DNA of 64,000 bases, taken from positions 248,001-312,000 of the forward strand of contig NZ_FNIR01000003.1 of NCBI RefSeq assembly GCF_900103975.1. The letters are read 5' to 3'. Source of the DNA: Klenkia soli. Its GTDB lineage: Bacteria > Actinomycetota > Actinomycetes > Mycobacteriales > Geodermatophilaceae. Shown here one piece after another: positions 2,640 to 61,709 of this stretch. Position 1 is the first letter of the stretch, and every line of letters begins with the position of its first letter. The notes under the pieces are model-generated. The model ran no database searches. It was not told the DNA's origin and was given only the letters and a program-made list of their open reading frames with translations. The position numbers and the translations under genes are program-made.

Positions 2640-3689
2640 GTGGCCACCGTGGACGACCGCTCGGCGCAGCTGCTGGCCGGCCCGCGCGGGCGTCGGCTCT
2701 GCCTGCACCTCGCGGTGGCCGGATCGCTCTGGCCCCCGCGCGGCACCACCGACCCACGCGATGCGCTGCGCCGAGCCGTCGCGGGCCTCGGCGGTGCCGC
2801 ACCTCCGCCGGAGCTGCTGTGGGCGGGCCTCGTCGCCGCAGTGGACAGCGGACGCTACTGGCAGGGACCCGAGGACGCCGACGCCCTGCTGGCCGACCCG
2901 GGGACGGCCGCCGTGCTGCGTCCGGTCGCCGACGCCGTCGCGGCCGACCAGCGCGTCGGGTGGTGGTGGGAGGACCTCGACCGCGCCACGCAGACGTCGA
3001 TCAGCTGGCCCGGCGCCGACGACGCGCCGGCGACCGCGCCGTCCACCGGTGACCGCGCACGGGCTCGGCGCTGGTCCTCCTCCCTGGTCGCAGAGGAGGA
3101 CCGTGCGGCCCGGGGGAGACCCGCGGACCCGACGGCTGCGTGGTCGGGGTCCTGGTGGTCCGCGCCCTGCCTCAGCGGTCTGCCGCACACGTCACGGACC
3201 AGGACCGCGTCCGTGCGGGTCGGGGCCGCGCTCGTGTCGCCGGTGCCCACCCCGGTCGGCCTGCACCTCGTCGAGGACGAGATGGGCTGGCCCACCGCCC
3301 GTACCTGGCCGGTCCGCGCGCGGGACGGCGCCCGGGTCCTCAAGATCCGCGGTCCCCAGGACTGGGTAGACCTGGTGGCCCGCCACCCCCTGCCGGCGAC
3401 CGCGTCCCGCCGGCACGACTGGTACAGCTGCACCGGACGCACGGGGGAGTGGCTGGTCCCCGACTGGGGCTCCGTCGCCGACGAGGTGGACGCGGTGCAC
3501 GTCTCGGTGGGCGCCTGGTCGGCGACGGCCGGGCGGGCCCTCGACGTGCCCGGCAGCACCGCGGCGACGGTGCTCGCGGGGTGGGACCCCGATGCCACGT
3601 GGTGGCTGACCGACTGCGTCGAGTCGGGTGACCCGACCGACTGGGTCCGCACCGACGAGGACCCGCCGGACCGGTGGGTCCCCGCCTGA
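2640..3689 (+). CDS. Hypothetical protein, tryptophan-rich
   Basis: A 349-residue open frame starting GTG 15 bp after pafA, ending 3 bp before the convergent DUF3866 gene. I do not recognise a family. It has no signal peptide or membrane segment and is rich in Trp, Asp and Arg (for example VGWWWEDLDRATQ and WWLTDCVESGDPTDWV), suggesting a soluble, acidic cytosolic protein. Codon use is like that of its neighbours. Its place in the proteasome cluster hints at, but does not prove, a link to pupylation. Third-position GC and the fit between pafA and the next gene support it being real. Confidence 0.7.
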   Translation: MATVDDRSAQLLAGPRGRRLCLHLAVAGSLWPPRGTTDPRDALRRAVAGLGGAAPPPELLWAGLVAAVDSGRYWQGPEDADALLADPGTAAVLRPVADAVAADQRVGWWWEDLDRATQTSISWPGADDAPATAPSTGDRARARRWSSSLVAEEDRAARGRPADPTAAWSGSWWSAPCLSGLPHTSRTRTASVRVGAALVSPVPTPVGLHLVEDEMGWPTARTWPVRARDGARVLKIRGPQDWVDLVARHPLPATASRRHDWYSCTGRTGEWLVPDWGSVADEVDAVHVSVGAWSATAGRALDVPGSTAATVLAGWDPDATWWLTDCVESGDPTDWVRTDEDPPDRWVPA

Positions 3690-3692
3690 GCC

Positions 3693-4778
3693 TCAGGCCA
3701 GCCGGGCGGCGTGCCGACCGGCGCAGGCCGCGGCCAGGAAGTAGGCGTGGTCGGCGTCCAGCCCCCGGCCCATCGTCGACAGCCCGACCGGCAGGGCGCG
3801 CAGCGCGTCGTCCAGACCCTCGACCTCGACCTCGACCACAGGGTTGCGGTCGGGTTGGCCGGCGAGGTCCTCGGCCACCTGCACGGCCAGCTCGTCGGAC
3901 AGACCGGAGGCGGGGACCGGCAGCACGACCCCACCCATCGCCACACGCCCGAAGGCCGTCAGCGAGTGGTGGGAGACCCCCCGGTGCCGCGGGCGCGGGT
4001 CGGCGTCGGAGATACGCAGCGCACCGACCGCCTGCCCACCCAGCACGTGGACCGCGTTGCAGGCGTCACCGGCAGCCACCCCCGAGAACCCCCACGGCGT
4101 CCCCGTACCCAGGTTGCCCGGCCCCTGGGCGACCACCGCCACGTCGGCGGACAGCACGTGGCGGGCGGCCAGCAGACCGGTGTGCACGGTGACCGCCTCG
4201 AGGTCGCCGCCGAACGCCTGGCCCACGGTGACCACCCCGGCCAGCGACGCGGCCAGGCCGTCCAGGGTGCGCGAGAACGCCGCCGGCAGCGCACCGCCGT
4301 CGGTCATCACGTAGGCCACCCGCAGGCCGGGAGCGGTGGCCAGCACCCCGGCCAGCACCGCCGGCAGCGCCGAGTGCAGGTCGGCCACCACCACCGGCAT
4401 GCCCCCGACGTCCTCGGCCTCGACGATCACCGCGTGGTGCGGCGTCTCCTGCTCATCCACGCCCTGCACCGTGACCTGCAGCCCGGTGTACCGGCCCTTG
4501 ACCAGGTGACCGGGGCCGGTCGGGTCGGCCGGCAACCGGTCGGGGAACGCGACCACCAGCGCGTAGCCGCCGGTGCCCAGCCGCTGCGCCCAGGCGGTGG
4601 TGTTCAGCAGCACCGCGTCACCCACCTCGGGCGTGCCCACCACCGAGGGGTGGGCCAGGGCGCGGAGCTCGCCGTCGCCGGGCACCTCGACCTGCAGCTC
4701 GAGCGAGTCGCGCCAGGTGCGGCCCAGGGCCAGCACCGTGCCGCGCCGCCAACGGATCCGGGACTCGGGGCTGGTCAC
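3693..4778 (-). CDS. DUF3866 family protein
   Basis: A 361-residue protein matching the DUF3866 family, widespread in actinobacteria and some Firmicutes, of unknown function. It begins with a small beta-rich region (RRGTVLALGRTWRDSLELQV) followed by Gly/Ala-rich alternating alpha-beta segments such as PVVVADLHSALPAV and VVAQGPGNLGTGTPWGFSG. There is no signal peptide. The GTG start is chosen because TAGGTT lies 7 nt upstream on the same strand, giving a leaderless promoter back to back with that of pafB. It often sits near pafBC or exonuclease genes in actinobacteria. Confidence 0.82.
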   Translation of the reverse strand: MTSPESRIRWRRGTVLALGRTWRDSLELQVEVPGDGELRALAHPSVVGTPEVGDAVLLNTTAWAQRLGTGGYALVVAFPDRLPADPTGPGHLVKGRYTGLQVTVQGVDEQETPHHAVIVEAEDVGGMPVVVADLHSALPAVLAGVLATAPGLRVAYVMTDGGALPAAFSRTLDGLAASLAGVVTVGQAFGGDLEAVTVHTGLLAARHVLSADVAVVAQGPGNLGTGTPWGFSGVAAGDACNAVHVLGGQAVGALRISDADPRPRHRGVSHHSLTAFGRVAMGGVVLPVPASGLSDELAVQVAEDLAGQPDRNPVVEVEVEGLDDALRALPVGLSTMGRGLDADHAYFLAAACAGRHAARLA

Positions 4779-4785
4779 CCGGCCC

Positions 4786-4807
4786 AACCTAGGCGACGCA
4801 CTAGCCT
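4786..4807. promoter_or_regulatory. Back-to-back leaderless promoters (DUF3866 and pafB)
   Basis: On the minus strand TAGGTT (4786-4791) lies 7 nt before the GTG of the DUF3866 gene. On the plus strand TAGCCT (4802-4807) lies 7 nt before the GTG of pafB. The two -10 elements are 10 bp apart in a 36-bp intergenic gap, so RNA polymerase binding at one should exclude the other. Confidence 0.5.
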
Positions 4808-4814
4808 GGCCCAC

Positions 4815-5783
4815 GTGTCGGCCAAGCGTGCGGAGAGACTGGTCAACCTGGTCTTCGCGCTGCTGGGCACCCGGCAGTTCGTGACCGCCGAGCGGATCCG
4901 CAGCACCGTGCCCGGCTACGAGCAGGCCGACGGCACCGAGCGCGCCGACGAGGCCTTCAAGCGCATGTTCGAGCGCGACAAGACCGACCTGCGCGAGCTC
5001 GGCGTCCCGCTCGAGACCGGCCGCACCAGCATGTTCGACACCGACGACGGCTACCGGATCGCCCGCTCCGCCTACGAGCTGCCCGAGATCACCCTCACCG
5101 GTGACGAGGCCGCGGCGGTCGGCCTGGCCCTGCGGCTGTGGCAGTCCGCGCAGCTGGGCGGTGCCGCCCAGGGCGCCCTGGTCAAGCTGCGCGCCGCCGG
5201 GGTCGACGTCGACGGCGCCGGCGCGCTGCCGCTGCAGCCCCGGCTGGACGGCGGCGAGCCCGCCTTCGACGCCTGCTACACCGCCGCCCGCGACCGCCGG
5301 CTGCTGACCTTCACCTATACCCGCCCCGACGAGGACACCGGCGTCCGCCGCCGGGTGCACCCGTGGGGCGTCGTGTCCTGGCACGGCCGCTGGTACCTGG
5401 TCGGGCACGACCTGGACCGCGACGGCACGCGGGTGTTCCGGCTCTCCCGGGTGACCGGCACGGCCCGGGCGGCCGGGCCGTCCGACGCGTTCACCCCGCC
5501 CGACGACCTCGACCTCGCCGCCGTCGTCGCCCGGCAGGTGGGCCGGCCCGAGCACGTCGCCGTCCTCCTCGTCCGGCCCGGCACCGCCGTCGGGCTGCGC
5601 CGCCGGGCCGCCGACCTCGGCCCGGCCCCGGACGGCGACGACCGGCTCGAGCTGCGGACGACGGAGCTCTGGGCCCTCGCCGACGAGATCGCCGCGCACG
5701 GCCCCGACGTCCTGGTCGAGTCCCCGCCCGAGCTGCGGTCGGCCGTGGTCGAGCGGCTGACCCGGTTGGCGGCGTCGGCATGA
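4815..5783 (+). CDS. pafB: WYL-domain transcriptional regulator PafB
   Basis: A 322-residue protein with an N-terminal winged helix-turn-helix (residues about 1-70, AKRAERLVNLVFALL) and a WYL domain (about 160-235, with WGVVSWHGRWYLVGHD). With PafC it forms the mycobacterial activator of the LexA-independent DNA damage response; the WYL domain is thought to sense single-stranded DNA. GTG start with a leaderless -10. The stop overlaps the pafC start (ATGA), so the two subunits are translationally coupled. Confidence 0.93.
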   Translation: MSAKRAERLVNLVFALLGTRQFVTAERIRSTVPGYEQADGTERADEAFKRMFERDKTDLRELGVPLETGRTSMFDTDDGYRIARSAYELPEITLTGDEAAAVGLALRLWQSAQLGGAAQGALVKLRAAGVDVDGAGALPLQPRLDGGEPAFDACYTAARDRRLLTFTYTRPDEDTGVRRRVHPWGVVSWHGRWYLVGHDLDRDGTRVFRLSRVTGTARAAGPSDAFTPPDDLDLAAVVARQVGRPEHVAVLLVRPGTAVGLRRRAADLGPAPDGDDRLELRTTELWALADEIAAHGPDVLVESPPELRSAVVERLTRLAASA

Positions 5784-6742
5784 GCGCGCCGACGACCGAC
5801 CGGATGACCCGGCTGCTGGCCCTGCTGCCCTACCTGGAGGCCCGGCCCGGCGGCGTGCTGCTGGCTGACGCCGCCCGCGACTTCGCCATCACCGAGGCGC
5901 AGCTGCAGAAGGACCTCGAGCTGCTGTGGGTGTGCGGGTTGCCCGGCCACGGGCCCGGCGACCTGGTCGACCTGTCGTTCGAGGGCGACCGGGTGCGGGT
6001 CACCGACACCGCCGGGCTGGTCCGACCGCTGCGGCTGGCCACCGACGAGGCCGTCGCCCTGGTCGTCGCGCTGCGCGCCCTGCTCGAGCTGCCCGGGTTG
6101 GCCGAGACCGACGCCGTGAGCCGCGCGTTGGTCAAGGTGTCGGCCGCGGCGGGGGAGCCGGTGGACCTCGCCGGGGCGGTCACGGTGAGCATCGACGCCC
6201 GCGAGCAGACCCTCGCCGTCGTCCGGCAGGCCCTGCAGGCCCACCGCGCGCTGCACCTGCACTACTACGTGCCCAGCCGCGACCAGCGCACCGAGCGCAC
6301 GGTCGACCCGATGCGCCTGCTGCTGGTCGACGGGCACTGGTACCTGGAGGCCTGGTGCCGGCTGGCGGTGGGCACCCGGCTGTTCCGGTTGGACCGGGTG
6401 GACGACGTCGCGGTGCTCGACGAACCCTCCGCGCCCCCCGAGCAGGCGCAGCCGCGCGACCTCGACGACGGCCTCTACCAACCCGGCGCCGACCAGCCGC
6501 TGGTCCGCCTCCGGCTGGACCGCAGCGCCCGCTGGGTGGCCGACTACTTCCCGGTCGAGGAGGTCGTCGCGGTGGACGACCCGCCCGGCGGCCTGGCCGT
6601 CTCGGTGCGCACCGCCGACCCGGCCTGGGCCCGCCGGCTGGTGGCCTCCCTCGGGGGTGCGGCCCGGGTGGACGACCCGCCCGAGCTCGCCGACGAGATC
6701 GCCGCCGACGCCCGCGCCGCGCTCCTGCGCTACAGCGACTGA
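5780..6742 (+). CDS. pafC: WYL-domain transcriptional regulator PafC
   Basis: A 320-residue paralogue of PafB with an N-terminal HTH (TDRMTRLLALLPYLEARP), a WYL domain around residues 150-215 (LLLVDGHWYLEAWC) and a C-terminal WCX-like extension (ARWVADYFPVEEVVAVDD). It acts with PafB as a heteromeric regulator of DNA-damage genes. It overlaps pafB by 4 bp. The association with pafA is positional; mycobacterial work found no role for PafBC in pupylation itself. Confidence 0.93.
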   Translation: MSAPTTDRMTRLLALLPYLEARPGGVLLADAARDFAITEAQLQKDLELLWVCGLPGHGPGDLVDLSFEGDRVRVTDTAGLVRPLRLATDEAVALVVALRALLELPGLAETDAVSRALVKVSAAAGEPVDLAGAVTVSIDAREQTLAVVRQALQAHRALHLHYYVPSRDQRTERTVDPMRLLLVDGHWYLEAWCRLAVGTRLFRLDRVDDVAVLDEPSAPPEQAQPRDLDDGLYQPGADQPLVRLRLDRSARWVADYFPVEEVVAVDDPPGGLAVSVRTADPAWARRLVASLGGAARVDDPPELADEIAADARAALLRYSD

Positions 6743-6779
6743 CCAGGCTGCGCACAGCAGGGGCGTGGGTGGTCCCGGC

Positions 6780-6785
6780 TAGGGT
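6780..6785 (+). promoter_or_regulatory. Predicted leaderless -10 element
   Basis: TAGGGT followed by 7 nt and the GTG of the small membrane protein; no Shine-Dalgarno between. Confidence 0.5.
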
Positions 6786-6792
6786 CGGCCCC

Positions 6793-6996
6793 GTGCTGCT
6801 GCTGATCGTGCTGGGCGTCGTCGTCGTGCTGGCCCTCGTCGTCCTGGGAGCCCTCGGCTTCGGCCTGCTCGGCGCGGTCGGTCGACTGACCCGCGAGATG
6901 GCCGCCCTGCAGCGCGACGTCGCCCCGGTGGCGGCCCAGCTGCAGGCCTCGCTGGCCGAGGCGGCAGCCAAGCGCGGGCAGCCCACCGACGCGTAA
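6793..6996 (+). CDS. Small single-span membrane protein
   Basis: A 67-residue protein with one N-terminal membrane helix (residues about 1-27, LLLIVLGVVVVLALVVLGALG) followed by an amphipathic coiled-coil-like tail (REMAALQRDVAPVAAQLQASL). No function is known to me. It sits between pafC and tatA, where many actinobacteria have a similar small gene. The GTG start is placed by the leaderless -10 element 7 nt upstream. Confidence 0.7.
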   Translation: MLLLIVLGVVVVLALVVLGALGFGLLGAVGRLTREMAALQRDVAPVAAQLQASLAEAAAKRGQPTDA

Positions 6997-7031
6997 CCTC
7001 GGACCCGGCCCCACACCCCACGGAGGACCCG

Positions 7032-7352
7032 ATGAGTCTCGGCCCGCTCGAGATCGGCCTGATCATCCTGGCCATCCTGCTGCTGTTCGGCTACAAGAAG
7101 CTGCCCGACGCGTCCCGGTCGCTCGGCCGGTCGATGCGCATCTTCAAGGGCGAGATGAAGGGCATGAAGGACGACGACGTCCGCGCCAAGGACCCCGCGA
7201 CCACCAGCCGCGGTGAGCTCGCACCCCCCGTGCCGCCGGTGACCCCGGACTACGAGGCCGAGGCCCGCGCGGCCGAGGCCCGGGCCGCCGAGGCGCGCGC
7301 CCGCGCCGACGCCAGCCGCACGGGGACCACCCCCGTCGACGGCACCCGCTGA
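7032..7352 (+). CDS. tatA: Sec-independent protein translocase TatA
   Basis: A 106-residue TatA/E protein: a short N-terminal membrane helix (GPLEIGLIILAILLLFGYKK), the conserved FGYKKLPDASRSLG hinge and amphipathic helix, then a charged Ala/Glu/Arg-rich tail with an AEARAAEARA repeat. TatA oligomers form the conduct through which folded twin-arginine proteins cross the membrane. A GGAGG site lies 7 bp before the ATG, and TAACCT at 6994-6999 is a possible -10. tatC follows 19 bp downstream; no tatB is seen here. Confidence 0.95.
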   Translation: MSLGPLEIGLIILAILLLFGYKKLPDASRSLGRSMRIFKGEMKGMKDDDVRAKDPATTSRGELAPPVPPVTPDYEAEARAAEARAAEARARADASRTGTTPVDGTR

Positions 7353-7371
7353 TCCCGCCCGGCACCGGGTC

Positions 7372-8280
7372 GTGAGCACCGCCGAGGCCAGCCGACCGCG
7401 CATCGGGCGGCGGAAGCGACCGCCGCGCGACGACGCGGCGACGATGTCGCTCATCGCGCACCTCAAGGAGCTGCGCAACCGCATCGGCATCGCGCTGCTC
7501 TTCGTGCTCATCGCCACGGCGATCGCGTTCTGGTGGTACGACCACGGCCTCGGCCAGTTCATCCGGGCGCCGTACTGCTCCATCCCGGCCGACAACCGGG
7601 CCCTGGACACCGGGAACAGCAGCGACGACTGCCGCCTGCTGGTCACCGACGTCTTCGGTGGGGCCCTGATCCGGCTGAAGATCGCGTTCATCGCCGGCAT
7701 CGTGCTGTCGGCCCCGTTCTGGCTCTGGCAGATTTGGGCCTTCCTCACCCCGGGGCTGAAGACGCACGAGAAGCGCTACGGCGTCGGGTTCGTGGTCGCC
7801 TCGAGCACCCTGTTCGCCCTCGGGGCCGTGCTGGCCTACATCTCCCTCAAGGCCGGGCTCACCCTGCTGCTCGGGCTGGCCGGGGACAACGTGGCCATCG
7901 CCCTGACGGCGCAGGACTACATCGGGTTCGTCATCTCGATCCTGCTGGCGTTCGGCGTCTCCTTCGAGGTCCCGCTCATCGCGGTGGCCCTCAACCTCAT
8001 CGGGGTGCTGTCCTACGCCGTCCTGGCGAAGTCCCGCCGGTGGATCTTCTTCCTGACCATCGTGTTCGCGGCGTTCATCACGCCCACCCAGGACCCGTTC
8101 ACGATGCTGCTGATGGCGCTGCCGATGTGCGTGCTGTTCGAGGTGGCCATCCAGATCGCCCGGGTGGTCGACAAGCGCCGGGCCCGCCGCGACGGCACGG
8201 CCGGGTTCGCCGACCTGGACGACGACGAGGCCTCGCCGCTGGATGTCCGCCCGTCGGTGCTGGACGACCCGGACCGCTGA
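7372..8280 (+). CDS. tatC: Sec-independent protein translocase TatC
   Basis: A 302-residue TatC with six predicted membrane spans. The family motif is MSLIAHLKELRNR near residue 25, and the periplasmic loop is long and holds two Cys (YCSIPADN and DDCRLL). TatC is the receptor that reads the twin-arginine signal. The N-terminal 22 residues are basic and cytosolic. The C-terminal tail (RRARRDGTAGFADLDDDEA) is charged. GTG start 19 bp after tatA; the stop is 3 bp before the next gene, so the three genes look like one operon. Confidence 0.95.
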   Translation: MSTAEASRPRIGRRKRPPRDDAATMSLIAHLKELRNRIGIALLFVLIATAIAFWWYDHGLGQFIRAPYCSIPADNRALDTGNSSDDCRLLVTDVFGGALIRLKIAFIAGIVLSAPFWLWQIWAFLTPGLKTHEKRYGVGFVVASSTLFALGAVLAYISLKAGLTLLLGLAGDNVAIALTAQDYIGFVISILLAFGVSFEVPLIAVALNLIGVLSYAVLAKSRRWIFFLTIVFAAFITPTQDPFTMLLMALPMCVLFEVAIQIARVVDKRRARRDGTAGFADLDDDEASPLDVRPSVLDDPDR

Positions 8281-8283
8281 CCG

Positions 8284-9192
8284 GTGGAGGTCGCGCTGCT
8301 GGTCAACACCGCTGCCGGCCGCGGCCGGGCCCGTGCCGCCGCGGACGCCGCCACCGCCCGGTTGGCGGCGGGCGGGGTGCGGGTGCGCCCGCTGGTCGCC
8401 GCGGACCGGTCGGCCGCCGAGGCGGCGGTCCGGGCGGTGCGCGCGGACGTCGACGCCGTGGTCGCCCTCGGCGGTGACGGGGTGGTCCACGCCGCCGTCC
8501 AGGGGCTGGCCGGCACCGGCACCCCGCTGGCGGTGCTGCCCGCCGGTACCGGCAACGACCTCGCGCTGGCCCTGGGCATCCCGGCCGACCCGCTGGCGGC
8601 CGCCGACGCCGCGGCCGCCGACCTGCGCGCAGCCGCGGCGACCGGCATCGACCTCGTCCGGAGCAGCTCGGCGGCGGGGGAGCGGTGGTGGGCCACCGTG
8701 CTGTGCTGCGGGTTCGACTCCGCCGTCAGCGACCGGGTCAACCGGCTGCGCTGGCCGCGCGGACCCCGCCGCTACGACCTGGCCATCGCCGTCGAGCTGG
8801 CCCGGCTGCGCTCGCGCCGGGTGCGGCTGACCCTCGACGGCGTCGCCGCCGACCGGGAGGTCACGCTGGTCGCGGTCGGCAACACGCCGTTCTACGGCGG
8901 TGGGCTGCGGATCTGCCCCGATGCCGACCCCGCCGACGGGTGGCTGGACGTCACCGTGGTGGGCCCGGTGAGCCGCCGCGAGCTGGTGCGCACCCGTCCC
9001 CGGTTGGCCGCCGGCACCCACGTCGCGCACCCCGCGGTCGAGGTGCTGCGCGCCCGGGAGGTGCTGGTCGAGAGCACCGAGGCGTTGACGACCTGGGCGG
9101 ACGGCGAACCGGTCGGCCCGTTGCCGCAGCGCTGCACCGTCGTCCCCGGGGCGCTCTCGGTCCTCGGCGCCGGGCGGCGCGCGGCCTCGTAA
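8284..9192 (+). CDS. Diacylglycerol kinase-family lipid kinase
   Basis: A 302-residue DagK/YegS-type kinase. Seen are the nucleotide-binding motif VVALGGDGVVHAAVQG and the PAGTGNDLALALGIP motif, both hallmarks of DAGK_cat, with a C-terminal beta-sandwich (FYGGGLRICPDADPADGWLD). Members phosphorylate diacylglycerol or related lipids at the inner membrane and recycle lipid from turnover. GTG start 3 bp after tatC, suggesting co-transcription. Precise substrate is not determined by sequence. Confidence 0.88.
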   Translation: MEVALLVNTAAGRGRARAAADAATARLAAGGVRVRPLVAADRSAAEAAVRAVRADVDAVVALGGDGVVHAAVQGLAGTGTPLAVLPAGTGNDLALALGIPADPLAAADAAAADLRAAAATGIDLVRSSSAAGERWWATVLCCGFDSAVSDRVNRLRWPRGPRRYDLAIAVELARLRSRRVRLTLDGVAADREVTLVAVGNTPFYGGGLRICPDADPADGWLDVTVVGPVSRRELVRTRPRLAAGTHVAHPAVEVLRAREVLVESTEALTTWADGEPVGPLPQRCTVVPGALSVLGAGRRAAS

Positions 9193-9195
9193 CGT
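9190..9195 (+). promoter_or_regulatory. Predicted leaderless -10 for helY
   Basis: TAACGT overlaps the TAA stop of the lipid kinase gene and is 6 nt before the ATG of the helicase. Confidence 0.4.
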
Positions 9196-9201
9196 GGGGG
9201 C

Positions 9202-12051
9202 ATGCTCGACACCGGCGACCTCAGCCCCGCCGAGCGGTACGCGGCCTCCCGGCGCCGCGGACGCTTCCCCCTGCTCTCGGACTTCGTGCTGGACCTCGGC
9301 TTCACCCTGGACCCGTTCCAGCAGGAGGCCTGCGAGGCGCTCGAGGGCGGGTCGGGCGTGCTGGTCTGCGCCCCGACCGGTGCCGGCAAGACGGTGGTCG
9401 GCGAGTTCGCGGTGCACAAGGCGTTGGCCGAGGGCCGCAAGGCGTTCTACACGACGCCGATCAAGGCGTTGTCCAACCAGAAGTTCGCCGACCTGGTCGA
9501 CCGCTACGGCCCGGAGCAGGTCGGCCTGCTGACCGGCGACAACGCGGTCAACGGCGATGCGCCGGTGGTGGTGATGACCACCGAGGTGCTGCGCAACATG
9601 CTCTACGCCGACTCCCCGGCGCTGCGCGGGCTGGGGTACGTCGTCATGGACGAGGTGCACTACCTGGCCGACCGGTTCCGCGGGGCGGTGTGGGAGGAGG
9701 TGATCATCCACCTCCCGGACGACGTCGCCCTGGTCTCGCTGTCGGCGACGGTCAGCAACGCCGAGGAGTTCGCCGACTGGCTGGTCACGGTGCGCGGCGA
9801 CACCGCCGTGGTGGTCAGCGAGGTGCGGCCCATCCCGCTGTGGCAGCACATGCTGGTCGGCGGTCGGGTGTTCGACCTGTTCGCGCTGCGGCCGGGGGCC
9901 CACCTGGCGGGCGAGGTCGAGCTGTCCAGCCGGCAGCGCGGCGCGGCCGTCGTCGACCCCGAGCTGGTCCGGTACGTGAAGGAGCAGGAGCGCCGGCTGG
10001 ACTCCTGGCACGGCGGGGCCACCCGGCGCAGCAAGGAGCGCTACGAGCACCGCCCGCGGTACACCCCGCCGGGCCGGTCCGAGGTGCTCACCCGGCTCGA
10101 CGCCGCCGGCCTGCTGCCGGCGATCACCTTCGTGTTCAGCCGCAAGGGCTGCGACGCCGCGGTCGAGCAGTGCCTGCGTGCCGGGCTCCGGCTCACCGAC
10201 GAGGCCGAGCGGGCCGCGGTCGCCGAGGTGGTCGACCGGCACACCGGCTCGCTGCACGAGGCCGACCTGCAGGTGCTCGGGTTCTGGGAGTGGCGGGAGG
10301 GCCTGCTGGCCGGGCTCGCCGCCCACCACGCCGGCCTGGTGCCGGCGTTCAAGGAGGCCGTGGAGGAGTGCTTCGTGCGCGGTCTGGTGAAGGCGGTGTT
10401 CGCGACCGAGACCCTGGCGCTGGGCATCAACATGCCGGCCCGCACCGTCGTCCTCGAGAAGCTCACCAAGTGGAACGGCGAGGCCCACGTCGACGTGACG
10501 CCGGGGGAGTACACCCAGCTGACCGGTCGGGCCGGCCGTCGCGGCATCGACGTCGAGGGCCACGCCGCCGTCGTGTGGGCACCCGGTGTCGACCCGGCGG
10601 CGGTCGCCGGGCTCGCCAGCACCCGCACGTACCCGCTGCGGTCGTCGTTCCGGCCCAGCTACAACATGGCCGTCAACCTGGTCGGCTCCCACGGCCGGGA
10701 GCGCGCCCGCGAGCTGCTGGCGTCCTCCTTCGCGCAGTTCCAGGCCGACCGGTCGGTCGTGGGCCTGGCCCGCCAGGCCGCGCGCAACGAGGAGGACGCC
10801 GGCCGACTGGAGGCCGCGGTCCCGTCCGGCAAGGGGGACGTCGCCGGCTACGCGCAGCTGCGTGCGGAGATCTCCGACCGGGAGAAGGAGCTGGCGCGGG
10901 ACACCCAGGCCCGCCGCCGCCGGGAGGCCGCCGAGACGCTGCTGGCCCTGCGGCCCGGCGACGTCATCCGGGTGCCCTCGGGCCGGCGCCAGGGGCTGGC
11001 CGTCGTCCTCGACCCCGGCATCACCGAGCTCGCCGACCCCCGGCCGCTGGTGCTGACCGAGGACAAGTGGGCCGGTCGGCTGGGCCCGCTGGACTTCCCG
11101 AGCCCGGTCGACGCGCTGGCCCGGCTCCGGGTGCCCAAGAACTTCAACCACCGCAGCCCGCACGCCCGCAGGGACCTCGCCGCGGTCCTGCGCGACACCC
11201 GCACCGAGCTGGGCCTGGGCGCGCGCAAGACCTCGGTCCGGTCCGGGGCCGACGACGACCCGGTGCTGGTGGACCTGCGGCACGCCCTGCGCCGGCACCC
11301 CGTCCACCAGCTCCCCGACCGCGAGGAGCTGGTCCGCACCGCGCAGACCTGGCTGCGGGCCCGGCGGGACGCCGAGCGCGTGCGCGGCCAGGTGGCCGAG
11401 CGCACCGGCTCGCTGGCCAGGCAGTTCGACCGCACCTGCGACGTCCTCGAGCAGCTGGGCTACCTGCGGCCCGACGCGCCCTCGGCCGCCGACGAGCACA
11501 GCCCCGGCCCGCACCCGGCCGCCGAGGCGCCCGTGGTGACCACGGCCGGGCGGCAGCTGTCCCGGATCTGGTCGGAGGCCGACCTGCTCACCGCCGAGTG
11601 CCTGCGCGCCGGGGTCTTCACCGGCCTCGACGCCCCGGGGCTCGCCGCCTGCGCCTCCGCGCTGGTGTTCGAGGCCCGGCGGGACTCACCCAGCCAGCCC
11701 CCCGTGCCGGCCGGGCCGGTGTCGGCGGCGCTGGTGGCCATGCGCCGCGTGCACGCCGAGCTGCACGCGGTCGAGACCGACCACGGCGTCCGGCCCGGCC
11801 GGGACCTGGACCTGGGGTTCGTCCGGGCCGCGTACCGGTGGGCCGAGGGCCAGTCGCTGGACCGGGTGCTGGCCGAGGCCGAGCAGGCGGGCACCGAGCT
11901 GTCCGGCGGGGACTTCGTGCGGTGGGCCCGGCAGCTGGTGGACCTGCTCGACCAGCTGGCCAAGGTCACCGACGGGGCGCTGTCCCGCACCGCGCGGTCG
12001 GCGGTGGAGCGGGTCCGCCGCGGCGTGGTCGCGGTGGCCGTCAGCGGGTGA
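9202..12051 (+). CDS. helY: Ski2/Mtr4-like RNA helicase HelY
   Basis: A 949-residue superfamily 2 DEVH-box helicase. Walker A APTGAGKT is at residues 57-64, DEVH at 150-153, the SAT motif (LSATVSN) shortly after, and motif VI as [12 protein letters not shown] near 435. The C-terminal half has the DSHCT domain of Ski2/Mtr4 proteins. The mycobacterial orthologue is Rv2092c. Likely an ATP-dependent RNA unwinding enzyme in RNA turnover; bacterial function is poorly known. Gene order tatA-tatC-helY is conserved across actinobacteria. A strong hairpin starts 3 bp after the stop. Confidence 0.93.
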
Positions 12052-12053
12052 TC

Positions 12054-12090
12054 GCACCGGGCGCCGCTCCGGGGGCGGCTCGCCCGGTGC
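12054..12090 (+). terminator. Hairpin after helY
   Basis: Perfect 10-bp arms GCACCGGGCG (12054-12063) and CGCCCGGTGC (12081-12090), with a nested CCGC/GCGG stem inside. It begins just after the helY stop. There is no U-tract, common for high-GC terminators. Confidence 0.55.
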
Positions 12091-12172
12091 CGGCGCCCGG
12101 CGTGGTGGAGAATCGGCGCGGCCCGCTGCCGGCGCCCTCCGGGGACCGGCCCGCCTCGACGAGGGAGCGTTC

Positions 12173-13366: not shown

Positions 13367-13385
13367 CCGCAGGACCCGGCCGCTG

Positions 13386-14297: not shown

Positions 14298-14304
14298 GTC
14301 CGGG

Positions 14305-14310
14305 ACGGTA
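14305..14310 (-). promoter_or_regulatory. Predicted leaderless -10 for the exonuclease
   Basis: On the minus strand TACCGT ends 7 nt before the GTG at 14297; no ribosome site is visible. Confidence 0.45.
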
Positions 14311-14344
14311 ACGGCCGGGCCGCCGGACGGGGAGGTCCCGGCAC

Positions 14345-50850: not shown

Positions 50851-50942
50851 GCCCCACCTTGGCACCGAAGCGTGCGGAGGTCGACGGTGTCGTACCCCGG
50901 GTGCACGGTGGAGTCGTCCCCCGACGTCCCCGAGGAGCTGCC

Positions 50943-51359: not shown

Positions 51360-51368
51360 TCCGGTCAG

Positions 51369-51402
51369 CGGGGCAGCCGCGTCCCCCGGTCTCGCTGCCC
51401 CG
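51369..51402 (+). terminator. Hairpin after the VOC gene
   Basis: CGGGGCAGC (51369-51377) pairs with GCTGCCCCG (51394-51402) around a 16-nt loop, starting 10 bp after the stop. A further CCTCCGG/CCGGAG pair follows. No U-tract. Confidence 0.5.
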
Positions 51403-51534
51403 TTCCGGGGTTCCCGCCCTCCGGACCGCCCCGGAGAGGGCAGAAACCCCGTACCCGAGCTGCACCGCTCGGCCCGCCCCGCAGAAGACCCACCGCCCTG
51501 CTGAGCCGGCAGCCGCGCGCAGGAGACTGTCGGC

Positions 51535-53001: not shown

Positions 53002-53657
53002 CGCTGCTCCGGGCGGCCGGTGGTGCCGTAGCGCAACTCCAGCTCCAGCCGGCCGTCGGCGTCCAGCGCCGACAGGTGCCGCTGCGCCGTCGCGCGGGAC
53101 ACCCCGGTCGCCTCGGCCAGCTCGGCGGCCGACCGGGGCTCCCCGGCCGCCCGCAGCGCCTGCAGCAGCAGGTCACGGGTCGCGCTGGCCGCCGGCCGCG
53201 GCGCCGCCCCCTCGCCGCGCAGGGCGTGCAGTGCGGCGTCGACGGTGTCCTGGTCGACCTCGGGGACGTCGTCGACCACCCGCCGGTAGCGGGCGTAGGA
53301 GCGCAACCGCGCCTGCAGCACCCGCTCCGGGAACGGCTTCACCAGGTAGGCCAGCGCCCCGGCCCGCACCGCGGCGCGGAACGTCGGCGGCTCGGTCGCC
53401 GCCGACAGCACGAACGCGTCGCACCCCAGCTCGGGGAGCAACCCGATCCCGGACCCGTCGGGCAGGTAGACGTCGACCAGCGCCAGGTCGAACGGCGGCG
53501 CCCCGGATGCCCGGCGCGCCCCGACGGCGGTTCGGGCGGCGTCCCGGCTGCCGGCCCGCCCGGCGACGGCAAACCCCGGGACGGCGGCCACCGCCCGCGC
53601 GTGCAGCTCGGCGACCCGGAAGTCGTCGTCCACCACGAGCACCAGCAGATCGCTCAC
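52983..53657 (-). CDS. CitB/DcuR-type response regulator
   Basis: A 224-residue regulator. Receiver domain: acidic pocket D10/D11, phospho-acceptor D62 (LALVDVYLPDGSG), S85 and K107 (YLVKPFPERVL). The C-terminus (about 160-215) is a winged HTH (SAAELAEATGVSRATAQRHLS). With its kinase it probably senses citrate or another di-/tricarboxylate and drives the divergent CitMHS transporter. GTG start overlaps the kinase stop. Confidence 0.92.
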   Translation of the reverse strand: MSDLLVLVVDDDFRVAELHARAVAAVPGFAVAGRAGSRDAARTAVGARRASGAPPFDLALVDVYLPDGSGIGLLPELGCDAFVLSAATEPPTFRAAVRAGALAYLVKPFPERVLQARLRSYARYRRVVDDVPEVDQDTVDAALHALRGEGAAPRPAASATRDLLLQALRAAGEPRSAAELAEATGVSRATAQRHLSALDADGRLELELRYGTTGRPEQRYRPRG

Positions 53658-55282
53658 GTCTCCTCCTCCAGCACCCCGGGCAGCCGCACCACGAACACCG
53701 CGCCGCCGAGCCCGCCGTCCCCACCGGCCGACCCCAGCACCGCGGAACCACCCCGCGCGCGGGCCACCTGGCGGACCAGGCCGAGCCCGATGCCGCCCTC
53801 CCCGGAGGGGCGGGTGGTCACGCCGGTCTCGAACACCCGGTCACCCAGCTCGGGTGGCACGCCGGGGCCGTTGTCGGCCACCGCGACCACCAGGGCGTCG
53901 CCGTCCTCGACCAGGTCGACCTCGGCCACCCCGTCGGGCCGGCCGGCCAGCGCGGTGACCGCGTTGTCCACCAGGTTGCCCAGCACGGTGGTGACGTCGA
54001 CCGGGTCCACCAGCCGGCGGCCGACGGCGACCGAGCCCAGCCGCAGCTGCACCCCGCCCTCCCGGGCGTGCGCCGCCTTGGCCGCCAGGAACGCCTGCAG
54101 GTACGGGTCGGCGACGGTGTCCAGGCCCTCGACCGCTGCGCCGAGCGGGCCGGTGCCGAGCAGCTCGTGCACGTAGTCGGCCGCCTCGGTGGTCAAGCCG
54201 GTGTCGAGCAGGCCGGACACCAGGTGCAGCCGGTTGGCGAACTCGTGCCGCTGCGCGCGCAGCACGGTGCCGGCCTCGGCGACGGCGTCCAGCTGGCGGG
54301 TGAGCAGCTCGACGTCGGTGCGGTCGCGCAGCGTCAGCACCACGCCCAGGTCGCGGCCGTCGCGGCTCACCCGGCGGGCCGAGCACAGCAGCGCCCGGTC
54401 CCCCAGCACGGTCAGCGACGGGGCCGGGTCGGGGTCGGCCACCAGCGAGCGCAACCCGGCCGGCCAGTCGTCGGTGGCGTCGCCCCGCGCCACCGGGCGG
54501 CCCAGCAACCGCACCGCCTCCTCGTTGGCCAGCACGACCCGACCGTCCGGCCCGACCGCGACCACGCCGTCCCCGATCCCCCGCAGCACCGCCTCGTGCC
54601 CCTGCAGCAGCCCGCCCAGCTCCTCGGGCTGCACGCCGTGGGTGAGCCGCCGCAGCCGGCGGGCCAGCAGCACCGCACCGGCCACGCCGCCCAGCAGCGC
54701 GAGGACGGCGGTGCCGGCGGCCAGCAGGATCGCGTCCCGCGCCAGCCGGTCCACCTCGGCCACCGCCACCCCGACGCTGACCTCGCCCACCACGCGGTCG
54801 GACCCCGGGGCACGCACCGGCACCTTGGCCCGGGCGGCCTCGCCGAGCGTGCCGGAGTCCTCCTCGACGACCTCTCCCCCGGCCAGCGGGATCGAGGGGT
54901 CGCTGCTGACCAGCAGACCCAGGCGGTCCGGGCTGGGATGGGCCAGCCGGAGCCCGCGGTCGTCGGTGACCACGACGAACAGGGCACCGGTGCGCAGCCG
55001 GGCGTCCTCGGCCGCCACCTGCACCGCGCCGTCGACCAGGGCGGCCCGGTCGGCGTCGGTGCTGGGTGCGGGCGCGTCGCTGGCAGCCTCGGCGCCGGCC
55101 CGGACGACGTCGTCCTCGGCGACGCTGCGGGCGATGGCGAGCGCGAGCCGGCCGGCGTCGTCGGTGACCTGCCGCTGCAGCACCCAGGCCGAGCCGCCGA
55201 ACGCGACGACCAGGACGGCGACCACGAGGAGGACGAGCACGGCCAGCGTCTGGCGGGTGAACGACCAGCGCCGCGGGTGCAC
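53654..55282 (-). CDS. CitA/DcuS-type sensor histidine kinase
   Basis: A 542-residue kinase. Two membrane helices (about 13-35 and 173-195) enclose an extracellular PAS-like sensor domain. A cytosolic PAS domain (about 215-320; IGDGVVAVGPDGRVVLANEEA) follows. The H-box is RAQRHEFANRLHLVSGLLD with His345, the type 5 CitA/DcuS signature; N-box NLVDNAVTAL and G1 box VADNGPGVPP complete it. GTG start set by TAGCCT 6 nt upstream. It sits beside a citrate-type transporter, fixing the likely signal as a carboxylate. Confidence 0.93.
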   Translation of the reverse strand: MHPRRWSFTRQTLAVLVLLVVAVLVVAFGGSAWVLQRQVTDDAGRLALAIARSVAEDDVVRAGAEAASDAPAPSTDADRAALVDGAVQVAAEDARLRTGALFVVVTDDRGLRLAHPSPDRLGLLVSSDPSIPLAGGEVVEEDSGTLGEAARAKVPVRAPGSDRVVGEVSVGVAVAEVDRLARDAILLAAGTAVLALLGGVAGAVLLARRLRRLTHGVQPEELGGLLQGHEAVLRGIGDGVVAVGPDGRVVLANEEAVRLLGRPVARGDATDDWPAGLRSLVADPDPAPSLTVLGDRALLCSARRVSRDGRDLGVVLTLRDRTDVELLTRQLDAVAEAGTVLRAQRHEFANRLHLVSGLLDTGLTTEAADYVHELLGTGPLGAAVEGLDTVADPYLQAFLAAKAAHAREGGVQLRLGSVAVGRRLVDPVDVTTVLGNLVDNAVTALAGRPDGVAEVDLVEDGDALVVAVADNGPGVPPELGDRVFETGVTTRPSGEGGIGLGLVRQVARARGGSAVLGSAGGDGGLGGAVFVVRLPGVLEEET

Positions 55283-55288
55283 GAGCGG

Positions 55289-55294
55289 AGGCTA
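55289..55294 (-). promoter_or_regulatory. Predicted leaderless -10 for the kinase-regulator operon
   Basis: TAGCCT on the minus strand, 6 nt before the GTG at 55282. Confidence 0.5.
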
Positions 55295-55312
55295 CCCGTG
55301 GGGTGAGCAGAA

Positions 55313-55334
55313 CGCGCAGAAGTAGTTCTTCGCG
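55313..55334. promoter_or_regulatory. Candidate response-regulator operator
   Basis: Inverted repeat CGCGCAGAA-GTAG-TTCTTCGCG, 8 of 9 pairs match, in the divergent gap between kinase and transporter. A further TTCGCG occurs about 20 bp downstream in the same orientation. Confidence 0.45.
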
Positions 55335-55444
55335 GACAACGGATCAGTTCGCGAGCAACCCCGGGTGACCCGCACCACGCCCATAACGTCCGTCACACCC
55401 CAGCGGGCCCGATCGGGGCCGGCGCACCAGCAGACGGAGCAACG

Positions 55445-56872
55445 ATGCTTGTACTACTCGGATTCGGCATGGTCGCCGTGTTCATGGCGCTCATCCTGAC
55501 CAAGCGGCTGTCCCCCGTGGTCGCGCTGATCCTGGTCCCGGTGACCTTCGCGGTCATCGCCGGCGCCGGCCTGGACGTCGGGGACGCGGTCAAGGAGCAG
55601 ATCGGCGGCTTCGCCACGACGGCCGCCCTGCTGTTCTTCGCGATCATCTACTTCGGCCTGATGATCGACGTCGGCCTCTTCGACCCGCTGATCAAGGGCA
55701 TCCTCAAGCTCTGCGGCGACGACCCCGTGCGGGTGGTCATCGGCACCGCCCTGCTGGCCGGCGTCGTCTCGCTGGACGGCGACGGCTCGACCACCTTCAT
55801 CATCACCGTCTCGGCGATGCTGCCCATCTACCTGCGCATGGGCCTGTCGCCGGTCACCCTGACCGTCGCGGCGAACCTGGCCAACGGCGTGTTCAACATC
55901 CTGCCCTGGGGCGGGCCCACCATCCGCGCCGCCACGGCCCTGGACGTCTCCCCCACCGAGCTGTTCAACCCGATGGTGCCCAGCATGGTCGCCGGGTTCG
56001 CCATGGTCCTCGTGCTGTCGGTCCTCATGGGTCTGGGCGAGCGTCGCCGGCTGGCCAAGAAGGGCATCTCGCTCACCCAGGTGCGCGAGCAGGAGCTGGC
56101 CGGGGTCGGCGCGTTCGTCACCGGCGGGCCCGGCGGCGGACGTCGTCCCGTCGAGCGACCCACCGGCGGTGCCGGGGACGGCGGCCACACCCCCGACGAC
56201 ACCCCCGACGAGCCGGTCATCGCCGGCCTGGACCCGAACCGCGCCTCGCTGCGCCCGAAGCTGCTGTGGTTCAACGCCTCCCTGACCGTGGCGCTGCTGG
56301 TGCTGCTGGGCATGGACGTCGTCCCGCTGTTCTTCGTGTTCATGCTCTTCGCCGCCCTGGCCCTGGTCGTGAACTTCCCGAGCCCCGCGGAGCAGGCCGA
56401 GCGGATCAAGGAGCACAGCTCGAGCATCGTGGCGGTCGTGGCCATGGTCTTCGCCGCCGCGGTGCTGGTCGCCGTGCTGTCCGCCACCGGCATGGACACC
56501 GCGATGGCCAGCTGGATCGTCGACGTCGTCCCCGAGAGCTGGGGCCCGTACTTCGCCACGATCACCGCGGTGCTGTCGATGCCGCTGACGTTCTTCCTGA
56601 CCAACGACGCCTTCTACTTCGGCGTGCTGCCGATCCTGTCGGAGGCCGCGGCCAACTACGGGATCACCCCGCTGGAGATGGCCCGGGCCTCGATCATCGG
56701 CCAGCCGGTGCACATGACCTCGCCGCTGGTCCCCGCGATGCTGCTGCTGATCTCGCTGGCCAAGGTCGACCTGGCCGACCACCACAAGAAGGTCATCTGG
56801 CGGGCCGCCCTGTGCTCGCTGTCCATGCTCGCCGTGGCGCTGCTCGTCGGCGTCGTCCCCTTCCACGCCTGA
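55445..56872 (+). CDS. CitMHS family citrate/divalent metal transporter
   Basis: A 475-residue secondary transporter with about 12 membrane spans. Family features are ILTKRLSPVVALILVPVTFA, SLDGDGSTTFIITVSAMLPIY and ILPWGGPTIRAATAL; the cytosolic loop around residues 200-275 is Gly/Pro/Asp-rich. CitM proteins import metal-citrate complexes with protons. It is divergent from the two-component system and followed 11 bp later by a universal stress protein gene. ATG with GGAGC upstream. Confidence 0.92.
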   Translation: MLVLLGFGMVAVFMALILTKRLSPVVALILVPVTFAVIAGAGLDVGDAVKEQIGGFATTAALLFFAIIYFGLMIDVGLFDPLIKGILKLCGDDPVRVVIGTALLAGVVSLDGDGSTTFIITVSAMLPIYLRMGLSPVTLTVAANLANGVFNILPWGGPTIRAATALDVSPTELFNPMVPSMVAGFAMVLVLSVLMGLGERRRLAKKGISLTQVREQELAGVGAFVTGGPGGGRRPVERPTGGAGDGGHTPDDTPDEPVIAGLDPNRASLRPKLLWFNASLTVALLVLLGMDVVPLFFVFMLFAALALVVNFPSPAEQAERIKEHSSSIVAVVAMVFAAAVLVAVLSATGMDTAMASWIVDVVPESWGPYFATITAVLSMPLTFFLTNDAFYFGVLPILSEAAANYGITPLEMARASIIGQPVHMTSPLVPAMLLLISLAKVDLADHHKKVIWRAALCSLSMLAVALLVGVVPFHA

Positions 56873-56883
56873 GGAACCGCGCC

Positions 56884-57285
56884 ATGACCGCACCCGTCGT
56901 CACCGCACCCGTCGTGATCGCCGTCAACGACCGTCCCGAGGGCAGCGCCGCCCTCACCTGGGGTCTGAAGCGGGCCGCCCGCCTGCAGACCACCGCCGTG
57001 CTGGTGCCCAGCACCGGGGACACCCCCAGCGCCCCGGTGCACCTGTCGGTCGCCACCCGCGAGCTGGTCGAGTCGGCCACCGCGGCCGCCGGGGTCGACT
57101 ACGTGCTGCACGAGCAGCCCGAGGACGTCGCCCAGGCGCTGATCAACCTGTCGGAGGACGCCGACATGGTGGTGCTGCCCGTGCGCCGCCGCTCGGTGAC
57201 CATGAAGTTCCTGCTGGGCAGCAACGCGATGCGGGTCATCGCCGAGGCGCACTGCCCGGTCGTGACGGTGAAGTCGCCCGGCTGA
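56884..57285 (+). CDS. Universal stress protein family
   Basis: A 133-residue UspA-fold protein: VVIAVNDRPEGSAALTWGLKRA at the N-terminus and the phosphate-binding end FLLGSNAMRVIAEAHCPVVTV. The GxxGxG-type loop is partial, so ATP binding is uncertain. It is downstream of the CitMHS gene and probably co-transcribed. A long hairpin follows. Confidence 0.85.
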   Translation: MTAPVVTAPVVIAVNDRPEGSAALTWGLKRAARLQTTAVLVPSTGDTPSAPVHLSVATRELVESATAAAGVDYVLHEQPEDVAQALINLSEDADMVVLPVRRRSVTMKFLLGSNAMRVIAEAHCPVVTVKSPG

Positions 57286-57296
57286 CCCCCGCACCA

Positions 57297-57371
57297 CCAC
57301 CCCGGCATGGGAGCCCATGCACCCGCTCTGGAGCGCCGGAACCGGGTGCACGGGCTCCCATGCCGGGGTGG
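57297..57371. terminator. Long inverted repeat between convergent usp and gcvP
   Basis: Arms 57297-57324 and 57344-57371 pair over 28 bp with one mismatch around a 19-nt loop. Each arm also contains its own palindrome (GCATGGG-AG-CCCATGC on the left), so the DNA could form a branched cruciform. The position between convergent genes suggests a bidirectional terminator. Confidence 0.85.
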
Positions 57372-57381
57372 GTGGGCGCGG

Positions 57382-60345
<2,964 letters not shown>

Positions 60346-60352
60346 GACCCCG

Positions 60353-60358
60353 AACGTA
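60353..60358 (-). promoter_or_regulatory. Predicted leaderless -10 for gcvP
   Basis: TACGTT on the minus strand, 7 nt before the GTG at 60345. Confidence 0.5.
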
Positions 60359-60369
60359 CCCGCTGCGCG

Positions 60370-60930
60370 TTACGCGGAGGCGCGCCGACGGCGGCGGGCG
60401 GAGAGCTCGTCGTCGGCGTCGACCGGACCGCCGTCCAGGCGCTCGGCAGGGAGCTCGGCGAGCTCACCGGTCAGCTCGCGCAGCGCGCCGGAGACCGCGA
60501 TGCCGAACACGCCCTGGCCACCGGCCAGCAGGTCGACGACCTCCTCGGCGGAGGTGCACTCGTACACCGTGGCGCCGTCGGACAGCAGGGTCACGTTCGC
60601 GAGGTCCTTGACCCCGCGGGTGCGCAGGTGGTCGACGGCCTTGCGGATGTTCTGCAGCGAGACCCCGGTGTCCAGCAGCCGCTTGACGACCTTGAGCACG
60701 AGGATGTCGCGGAAGCTGTAGAGGCGCTGGGTGCCCGACCCGGTGGCGGTGCGCACGGACGGGGCGACGAGACCTGTTCTCGCCCAGTAGTCCAACTGCC
60801 GATAGGTGATGCCAGAGGCCGCACACGCGGTGGGGCCGCGGTAGCCGAAGGCCTCGCTGTCGGCCTCGTCGTAGGAGGGAGCACCCACTGCCGCGTCGGT
60901 GAACAGCTGGCCCTGGTTGCCGTCGCCCAC
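60370..60930 (-). CDS. MerR family transcriptional regulator (Rv1830-like)
   Basis: A 186-residue regulator. The winged-helix MerR DNA-binding domain is residues about 25-100 (GPTACAASGITYRQLDYWARTGLV, then RLYSFRDILVLKVVKRLLDTG, SLQNIRKAVDHLRTRG). The C-terminal part (NVTLLSDGATVYECTSAEEVVDLL) is conserved in the actinobacterial Rv1830 group. It follows the bifunctional nuclease gene at a distance of 216 bp. GTG start; ribosome site weak. Confidence 0.9.
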   Translation of the reverse strand: MGDGNQGQLFTDAAVGAPSYDEADSEAFGYRGPTACAASGITYRQLDYWARTGLVAPSVRTATGSGTQRLYSFRDILVLKVVKRLLDTGVSLQNIRKAVDHLRTRGVKDLANVTLLSDGATVYECTSAEEVVDLLAGGQGVFGIAVSGALRELTGELAELPAERLDGGPVDADDELSARRRRRASA

Positions 60931-61146
60931 GTCAGCGTCCTCCTCGTCGTGCGGCCCGATCCGGAGACCCGGCCGGCGCCCCGCGCAGCCACCGAGCTGG
61001 ACGCTCGGAGTTGCACCGGGGTGATTCGTCGAAGGTAGGCCCGGGCGGTAGGCCGGTCAACCGCGACCGGCGGCGTGTCGAGCAGCTCACCCCGGAGGGT
61101 GACCTGACCGTGACCTGCGATGGGCTCGGTGTCACGGACCGCTCAC
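60931..61146. promoter_or_regulatory. Intergenic region before the MerR gene
   Basis: A 216-bp gap. It has a direct repeat GTGACCTG at 61099-61106 and 61110-61117 (11-bp spacing), possible regulator half-sites. No ORF or clear promoter is seen. Confidence 0.3.
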
Positions 61147-61638
61147 TCAGGGTGTCTGGTCGGACTCCGACGAGGGCCCGAAGAAGTCGTCGGGGCTGAC
61201 CTGGTCGAGGAACTCGCGGAATTTCTCGACCTCGTCCTCCTGCTCGTCCGGGATCTCGATGCCGACCTCGTCCAGCAGGGCCTCGGCGCCGTAGATCGGG
61301 GCGCCGGTGCGCACGGCGAGCGCGACGGCGTCGGACGGCCGGGCGCTGACGGTCCGCTCGTCGCCGAAGACCAGCTCGGCCAGGTAGATGCCGTCCTTCA
61401 TCTCGGTGATGTGCACGGCCTCCAGGCTCGCGCCCAGGGTGGTGACCACCTCGCGCAGCAGGTCGTGGGTCATCGGCCGCGCCGGCCGGACCCCCTGCTG
61501 CTCGAAGGCGATGGCGGCGGCCTCGACCGCGCCGATCCAGATCGGCAGGTAGCGCTCGCCCTGCGTCTCCTTCAGCAGCAGGATGGGCTGGTTGCCGGGC
61601 AGCTCGACCCGGACACCGACCACTCTGAGCTCCTGCAC
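61147..61638 (-). CDS. Bifunctional nuclease family (DUF151) protein
   Basis: A 163-residue BFN-domain protein: ELRVVGVRVELPGNQPILLLKE, LPIWIGAVEAAAIAFEQQGV and SARPSDAVALAVRTGAPIY. Plant relatives show DNase and RNase activity; the bacterial role is unknown. C-terminal acidic tail. GTG start with GGGGGAGG upstream. Matches Rv1829 by position between two MerR genes. Confidence 0.93.
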   Translation of the reverse strand: MQELRVVGVRVELPGNQPILLLKETQGERYLPIWIGAVEAAAIAFEQQGVRPARPMTHDLLREVVTTLGASLEAVHITEMKDGIYLAELVFGDERTVSARPSDAVALAVRTGAPIYGAEALLDEVGIEIPDEQEDEVEKFREFLDQVSPDDFFGPSSESDQTP

Positions 61639-61709
61639 GTTGGGCCTCCCCCGGTCGGTGCTGGACCGGCCCCGCGGGCCGGACGGTCGATCACAACGTA
61701 CGCCGGGGA

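Follow-up and report, generated by a model that had tools for sequence, protein, structure and literature searches.

GGGGGAG, a strand-switching word at the dif-like site of Klenkia soli, as the probable core of a KOPS-like sequence of the architecture-imparting kind

The closest described systems are short polar DNA words. In Bacillus subtilis, the polar octamer SRS (GAGAAGGG) is read by an FtsK-family gamma domain. In Escherichia coli and Vibrio cholerae, the FtsK-orienting polar sequence (KOPS) has the consensus GGGNAGGG; the accessible parts of two papers name the gamma residues N1296, R1300 and E1303 (PMC2533119) and, as a fourth, E1306 (PMC2680272) as those that read it. Architecture-imparting sequences (AIMS) are defined, in the available text of PMC5993296, by an excess on the leading strand and by an abundance and strand bias that increase toward the terminus. 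For such sequences, three Corynebacterium genome papers, in the passages available, describe the octamers G(A/T/C)GGGGGA and (T/C)GGGGGAG and cite Hendrickson and Lawrence 2006; in C. aurimucosum there were 856 leading-strand versus 61 lagging-strand copies, and the octamers were used to find dif. We analysed a 64-kb stretch of Klenkia soli DNA, designated here 'the window' (positions 248,001-312,000 of contig C8 in a draft genome of 4.76 Mb and 25 contigs; 74.5% GC by base counts). Judging from the sequence comparisons reported below, we consider it very probable that the heptamer GGGGGAG is the core of a KOPS-like FtsK-orienting polar sequence of the AIMS kind in this species, with RGGGGAGNGG ([AG]GGGGAG.GG) as its fuller consensus.

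All the copies of GGGGGAG in the window point toward a dif-like site (36 toward and 0 away, a type of count written 36:0 hereafter; Table 1), with a binomial P of 2.9e-11 that stays small even when the breakpoint is chosen freely. The initial annotation had placed 19 copies on the forward strand to the left of 36.8 kb and 17 on the reverse strand to its right; every one was recovered within about 10 bases, and no wrong-way copy was found. The copy number was ordinary (36 against 30.0 expected, standard deviation 5.7; 16 of 100 dinucleotide shuffles reach 36) and is as base composition predicts, so that the signal lies in orientation rather than abundance. When all 7-mers of the window were ranked by strand-bias score, GGGGGAG came first. 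The rival polar word TACGGCCAG (15:0) was rejected, being a repeat within a single Gly/Gln-rich gene at 12.2-13.4 kb.

Table 1. Features of the window, with positions counted from its first base.
Feature	Coordinates	Strand	Remarks
19 GGGGGAG copies	3112..36542	+	All point right, toward dif: 3112, 3443, 6151, 8676, 10503, 13481, 14905, 19331, 20083, 20107, 22720, 23572, 25224, 26285, 26908, 27100, 28991, 34607, 36536
DUF4333-domain gene carrying a long Gly-Tyr-Gly-Gln-Gln repeat	12173-13366	+	Pfam; repeats mimic a strand-biased word
dif-like XerC/XerD site TGCGCCGATAATCGACATTATGTCAGGT	36813..36840	+	Polarity switch point
YoeB-like toxin and Phd/YefM antitoxin gene pair	37383-37900	-	Pfam; about 0.5-1 kb from dif
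17 GGGGGAG copies	37671..61652	-	All point left, toward dif: 37671, 38260, 38568, 39315, 41036, 42067, 42157, 44394, 45326, 46364, 47088, 50638, 51895, 54874, 55948, 59548, 61646

The polarity switch falls between 36,542 and 37,671, an interval that contains the dif-like site, as had been claimed at the outset. The dif core pattern CGATAATCGACATTATGTCAGG has a single match in the whole draft genome, even when three mismatches are allowed. The site shares 23 of 28 bases with the dif suggested for Frankia alni in the accessible text of PMC3025954, and its core is unchanged in seven of the eight congeners searched; the genome of the remaining one is 73% complete.

Within the window, called genes lie preferentially on the leading strand, with 36.8 kb co-oriented and 12.4 kb counter-oriented. 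This might be expected if mutation bias between replication strands, GC skew or the orientation of genes produced the polarity as a by-product, without any reader. Synonymous-codon shuffles within each of 251 called genes of contig C8, which keep protein and codon use (100 rounds), argue otherwise: 33.5 wrong-way copies were expected and 3 observed, while right-way copies numbered 84 against 55 expected. Polarity was moreover alike in co-oriented (42:2) and counter-oriented (42:1) genes, which bears out the early remark that the word occurs in genes of both orientations beyond what coding bias explains. For these counts genes were called simply, by GC content at codon positions; the calls cover 72% of C8, and the 'intergenic' class (36:2) includes uncalled genes. 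On the strength of the shuffles, coding bias is rejected as the cause. GC skew was rejected as well, being small and noisy in the window and the sampled stretches; no clear switch of GC skew was seen in the window at the polarity switch point. In favour of a by-product, a phylum-mate of 51% GC (G060) has strong GC skew and many polar words (for example GGTGGTGT, 0.96 of 26), GGGGGAG (19/20) among them. At the sampled dif loci, however, several one-base neighbours of GGGGGAG show no polarity toward dif (see below); together with the shuffles, by which it is largely refuted, this makes the by-product explanation highly unlikely.

The pattern extends beyond the window. On contig C8 (385 kb, read whole in stretches) the total is 120:5, and the direction changes at the dif-like site. 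Up to 40 kb from dif the count is 38:0 (0.475 copies per kb), and at 40-285 kb it is 82:5 (0.24-0.31 copies per kb). The whole draft genome holds 704 GGGGGAG copies in forward and 689 in reverse direction, compared to 388 and 346 for the word with its letters reversed. Among the first 100 matches listed, which lie on contigs C3-C6 and were tallied by hand, 93 are forward and 7 reverse, mainly with one direction per contig. Likewise, among 36 listed of the 96 matches to GGGGGAGTG, a single direction was found per contig except on C8, where it flips across dif. Nine 20-kb stretches were sampled on other contigs: seven were one-sided (8:0, 8:0, 5:0, 3:0, 0:5, 0:8 and 9:0), and one on C18 gave 3:1; the ninth is taken up below. 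Contig C19 carries the origin, with a dnaA domain match at 178.4 kb and a GGGGGAG density of about 0.18 per kb (43 copies over 233 kb); to the left of this match, the expected direction, away from the origin, is that of 25 of 31 copies.

Chromosome-length contigs of four relatives were then considered, dnaA being placed by its Pfam domain and dif by a core scan, and the directions of GGGGGAGTG being counted by hand from the listed matches. Altogether 245 of 249 copies point from dnaA to dif: 80/80 in Pseudarthrobacter sp. GA104, 54/54 in Mycobacterium aurum, 33/34 in Arthrobacter sp. Hiyo4 and 78/81 in Phytohabitans suffuscus. Three of the four exceptional copies lie within 0.16 Mb of dnaA. 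The leading-strand excess that defines AIMS is therefore present in the window, on C8 and on these four contigs, and abundance and strand bias rise toward the terminus, with a weak bias on the origin contig; the gradient is coarse, because the counts cover two contigs in full and nine further stretches of 20 kb. A phylum-mate from another class (G064) shows two clean arcs (75/75 copies), defined by the directions of the word alone.

Closer relatives give the same picture. In seven congeners, with 40 kb read in each, the count is 171:1. At individual sites, GGGGGAG is unchanged in 82 of 146 aligned comparisons with seven congeners of 85-88% identity, compared to 249 of 710 for eight control words, which include the near-variant GGGGGAC, and 11,674 of 27,867 for random 7-mers, figures to which no P value is attached because the comparisons share ancestry. 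About two in five GGGGGAG sites are thus lost among congeners, with orientation kept. Further dif-like regions, found with up to one mismatch, were read in 17 of 18 matching genomes (G134 was left out): eight from the same class gave 49:0, and nine from other classes of the phylum gave 31:3, four of the nine being AT-rich with zero copies. The related word AGGGGAG was counted at 2:7 in one of these nine (G098). At this threshold most other-class genomes searched had no dif core match, so that polarity around dif refers to the matching genomes. In four same-order genomes (L196-L199), AGGGGAG near dif was counted at 3:0, 1:0, 5:0 and 5:1, compared to 2:0, 4:0, 2:0 and 2:0 for GGGGGAG; that the former is commoner in three of the four hints that lineages differ in the first base they prefer.

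A larger sample was obtained by scanning named genomes for the actinobacterial dif core, which yielded at least 119 loci of up to 8 kb each; the titles of loci matching the K. soli core were nearly all actinobacterial. Two loci with non-actinobacterial titles (L054, Flavobacteriales; L074, Bacillota) were dropped, leaving 117 loci for the ranking of 7-mers and the counts of single words and one-base neighbours; L151 was dropped in addition for the consensus, distance, density and E. coli-type word counts (116 loci), which leaves the GGGGGAG totals unchanged. Two loci labelled Planococcus sp. APC 4015 (L068, 5:0) and Bacillus sp. AZ43 (L124, 8:0) were kept; since they combine an actinobacterial dif core and polar GGGGGAG with 69-75% GC, their species labels look wrong.

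Among all 7-mers ranked at these loci, GGGGGAG was the most polarised. It was counted 474 times toward dif and 7 times away, and at least one right-way copy was found in 111 of the 117 loci. The nearest right-way copies lie at -241 and +38 bp from the dif centre and the nearest wrong-way copy at 587 bp. Only 7 right-way copies fall in the first 250 bp, the two sides taken together; right-way density reaches its maximum, about 0.8 per kb, at 0.5-2 kb from dif and is 0.3-0.5 per kb further out. This scarcity next to dif, followed by a peak, may correspond to loading room for FtsK.

Single substitutions defined the word further. A purine is found at position 1, G at positions 2 to 5 and A at position 6; position 7 is mostly G, although C or T followed by a 3' G is still polar at lower counts (40:2 and 27:1); position 8 is free, and G is preferred at positions 9 and 10. 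The resulting longer motif, of the kind that the initial annotation proposed to look for, is RGGGGAGNGG, at 228:0, compared to 650:16 for [AG]GGGGAG. Several one-base neighbours are not polarised toward dif (GGGGGTG 91:141, GGGGGCG 133:149, GGGCGAG 205:231), while others are, mostly less strongly than GGGGGAG itself (AGGGGAG 176:10, GGGGGAC 89:14, GGGGGAT 64:14, GGGAGAG 149:33, GGGGAAG 92:38). Such weaker polarity of near-variants is as expected of a degenerate binding word. In its orientation and its switch at dif, RGGGGAGNGG resembles the KOPS of E. coli and V. cholerae, with which it can be aligned in an ungapped register, GGG G AG N G here against GGG N AG G G for KOPS. It differs from KOPS in three respects: G takes the place of the N, position 7 becomes free, and a purine is preferred upstream.

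In the K. soli genome, a reading frame of 1003 residues carries the FtsK 4TM, alpha, FtsK/SpoIIIE and gamma domains (Pfam). The gamma domain hardly differs from that of Modestobacter muralis (L167), and its six matches among solved structures are all FtsK chains or a XerD-FtsK fusion. An FtsK gamma domain was present in all 64 genomes tested (the genome itself, 33 of 33 and 30 of 30). For the reading of recognition helices, gamma domains were recovered in 59 of 61 cases. The helix is GFAKAGRLMDLME here versus GYNRAARIIEQME in E. coli; it contains GFAKAGR in 34 of the 35 class members read, and GFARAGR in the remaining one. The residue aligned with E1306 is kept. Other classes vary at the position of N1296, where A, S or T is found with GGGGGAG still polar (GFARAGR in G064, GYTRAGR in G097 and G130). 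The helix is GYSRAGR in G060 and G044, and in the latter GGGGGAG ranks below GGGGAGG, its polar fraction being only 0.72 of 233. Tight co-variation between the recognition helix and the word is thus unsupported, and variation at this position across classes sharing the polar word leaves a tight residue-to-base rule unsupported too.

From these observations we infer that the FtsK gamma domain reads the word and thereby steers the motor. On each arm, copies on the leading strand would point the way from the origin to dif; septal FtsK would bind them through its winged-helix gamma domains, the motor would load on one side of the word and pump DNA toward dif, and XerCD would resolve dimers there. 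The initial suggestion that the word behaves as KOPS-like or architecture-imparting sequences do is supported, as far as sequence goes, by the polarity from origin to dif, the switch at dif, more right-way and far fewer wrong-way copies than under coding constraint, and the breadth across the sampled phylum.

Orientation alone cannot tell a KOPS-like word from a Chi-like one. E. coli Chi is G-rich and leading-strand biased, and the word could by this precedent be a recombination or replication-restart signal of the phylum, biased to the leading strand and not read by FtsK. A Chi-like role does not predict a switch on dif itself, a density peak at 0.5-2 kb from dif or a consensus that aligns with KOPS, and we regard it as quite unlikely. 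A different question is raised by a class-mate with a single 9.17-Mb contig (G056), in which the dif core was not found at up to one mismatch. The two ends of this contig are perfect inverted copies of each other over at least 1,220 bp, which suggests that the chromosome is probably linear and Streptomyces-like. Of the 165 matches to GGGGGAGTG, the 75 listed cover the left 3.67 Mb, and 71 of these are directed at the left end; the rest divide into 75 forward and 15 reverse. In sampled stretches the rule mostly holds along the left arm and, up to 7.5 Mb, along the right. Polarity, even if less strict, thus persists without a dif core match, which implies that the word does not depend on dif recombination alone, and it might be read by another terminus system such as SMC unloading or a nucleoid-organising protein. 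The gamma domain of FtsK is present in this genome as in all others tested, however, and FtsK could presumably pump arms without dif; a reader other than FtsK is, of all the explanations considered, the one to which we give the least credence.

Several observations weigh against reading GGGGGAG as a KOPS-like word of K. soli. On C8, density beyond 40 kb does not rise steadily toward dif (0.306, 0.239 and 0.267 per kb, from far to near). The ninth sampled stretch, C21:40001-60000, is mixed (3:4). On C19, only 3 of the 12 copies to the right of dnaA are oriented as expected, one of them inside dnaA, and 9 point toward dnaA; a polarity switch at dnaA was therefore not seen over the 55 kb that this contig offers on that side (178 kb to 233 kb). 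These wrong-way copies could be due to a local inversion, to misassembly or to selection being weak near the origin. On the outermost right arm of G056, four stretches at 8.0-9.0 Mb together contradict the rule (7:12). In the recognition helix, with positions assigned from spacing, only the arginine among N1296, R1300 and E1303 is kept, with Ala at N1296 and Asp at E1303. Finally, three E. coli-type KOPS words are unpolarised at the dif loci (GGGCAGGG 37:35, GGGAAGGG 13:13, GGGTAGGG 10:8). The claim that the word points along each replichore to the terminus stands for the switch at dif (window, C8, seven congeners and the other sampled dif loci) and, in four relatives, at dnaA, and does not stand for dnaA on C19; the strand skew expected over the whole genome was recovered on C8 and in the other sampled stretches except that of C21.

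Among four E. coli-type KOPS words, GGGGAGGG alone is polarised (79:6), and a match to the consensus GGGNAGGG was not obtained; the SRS word of B. subtilis is weakly polarised (30:10). With this one exception, KOPS and SRS words were thus rejected as the polar word here. We conclude that the sequence is probably KOPS-like in its working, but that the word is specific to the lineage and not that of E. coli. Nor is it a new steering word, since octamers containing GGGGGAG have been published as actinobacterial AIMS: the available passages share with our results the word, its leading-strand polarity and its use in finding dif, and do not assign it to FtsK gamma. These octamers overlap RGGGGAGNGG, while AGGGGAG and the preference for a 3' NGG fall outside them. 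No report testing this word with FtsK was found among the titles and abstract openings retrieved from the open-licence literature, and two recent papers on FtsK of Corynebacterium and Mycobacterium, as far as their text is accessible, treat KOPS in general or E. coli terms. What is new here is the consensus, its register against KOPS, its breadth, and the lack of polarity of three of the four E. coli-type words.

A wider proposal, to which we give an even chance, is that RGGGGAGNGG would be the KOPS of Actinomycetota broadly. The gamma helix would then have shifted from GYNRAARIIEQME in E. coli to GFAKAGRLMDL(M/L)E in the class, and position 7 would have replaced position 4 as the free base of KOPS. 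Where a linear chromosome lacks dif, the signposts would point outward to the ends, so that FtsK steering would there serve the clearance of arms from the septum rather than dimer resolution. In the phylum to which Mycobacterium, Corynebacterium and Arthrobacter belong, the word is a precise, testable candidate for steering the FtsK pump, and it offers a natural comparison of joint change in a DNA pump and its road signs. In practice, it may be used to orient contigs and to locate dif in draft actinobacterial genomes.

As to the immediate surroundings of the dif-like site, a SpoU-family methylase gene (Pfam) sits between it and the toxin-antitoxin gene pair listed in Table 1.

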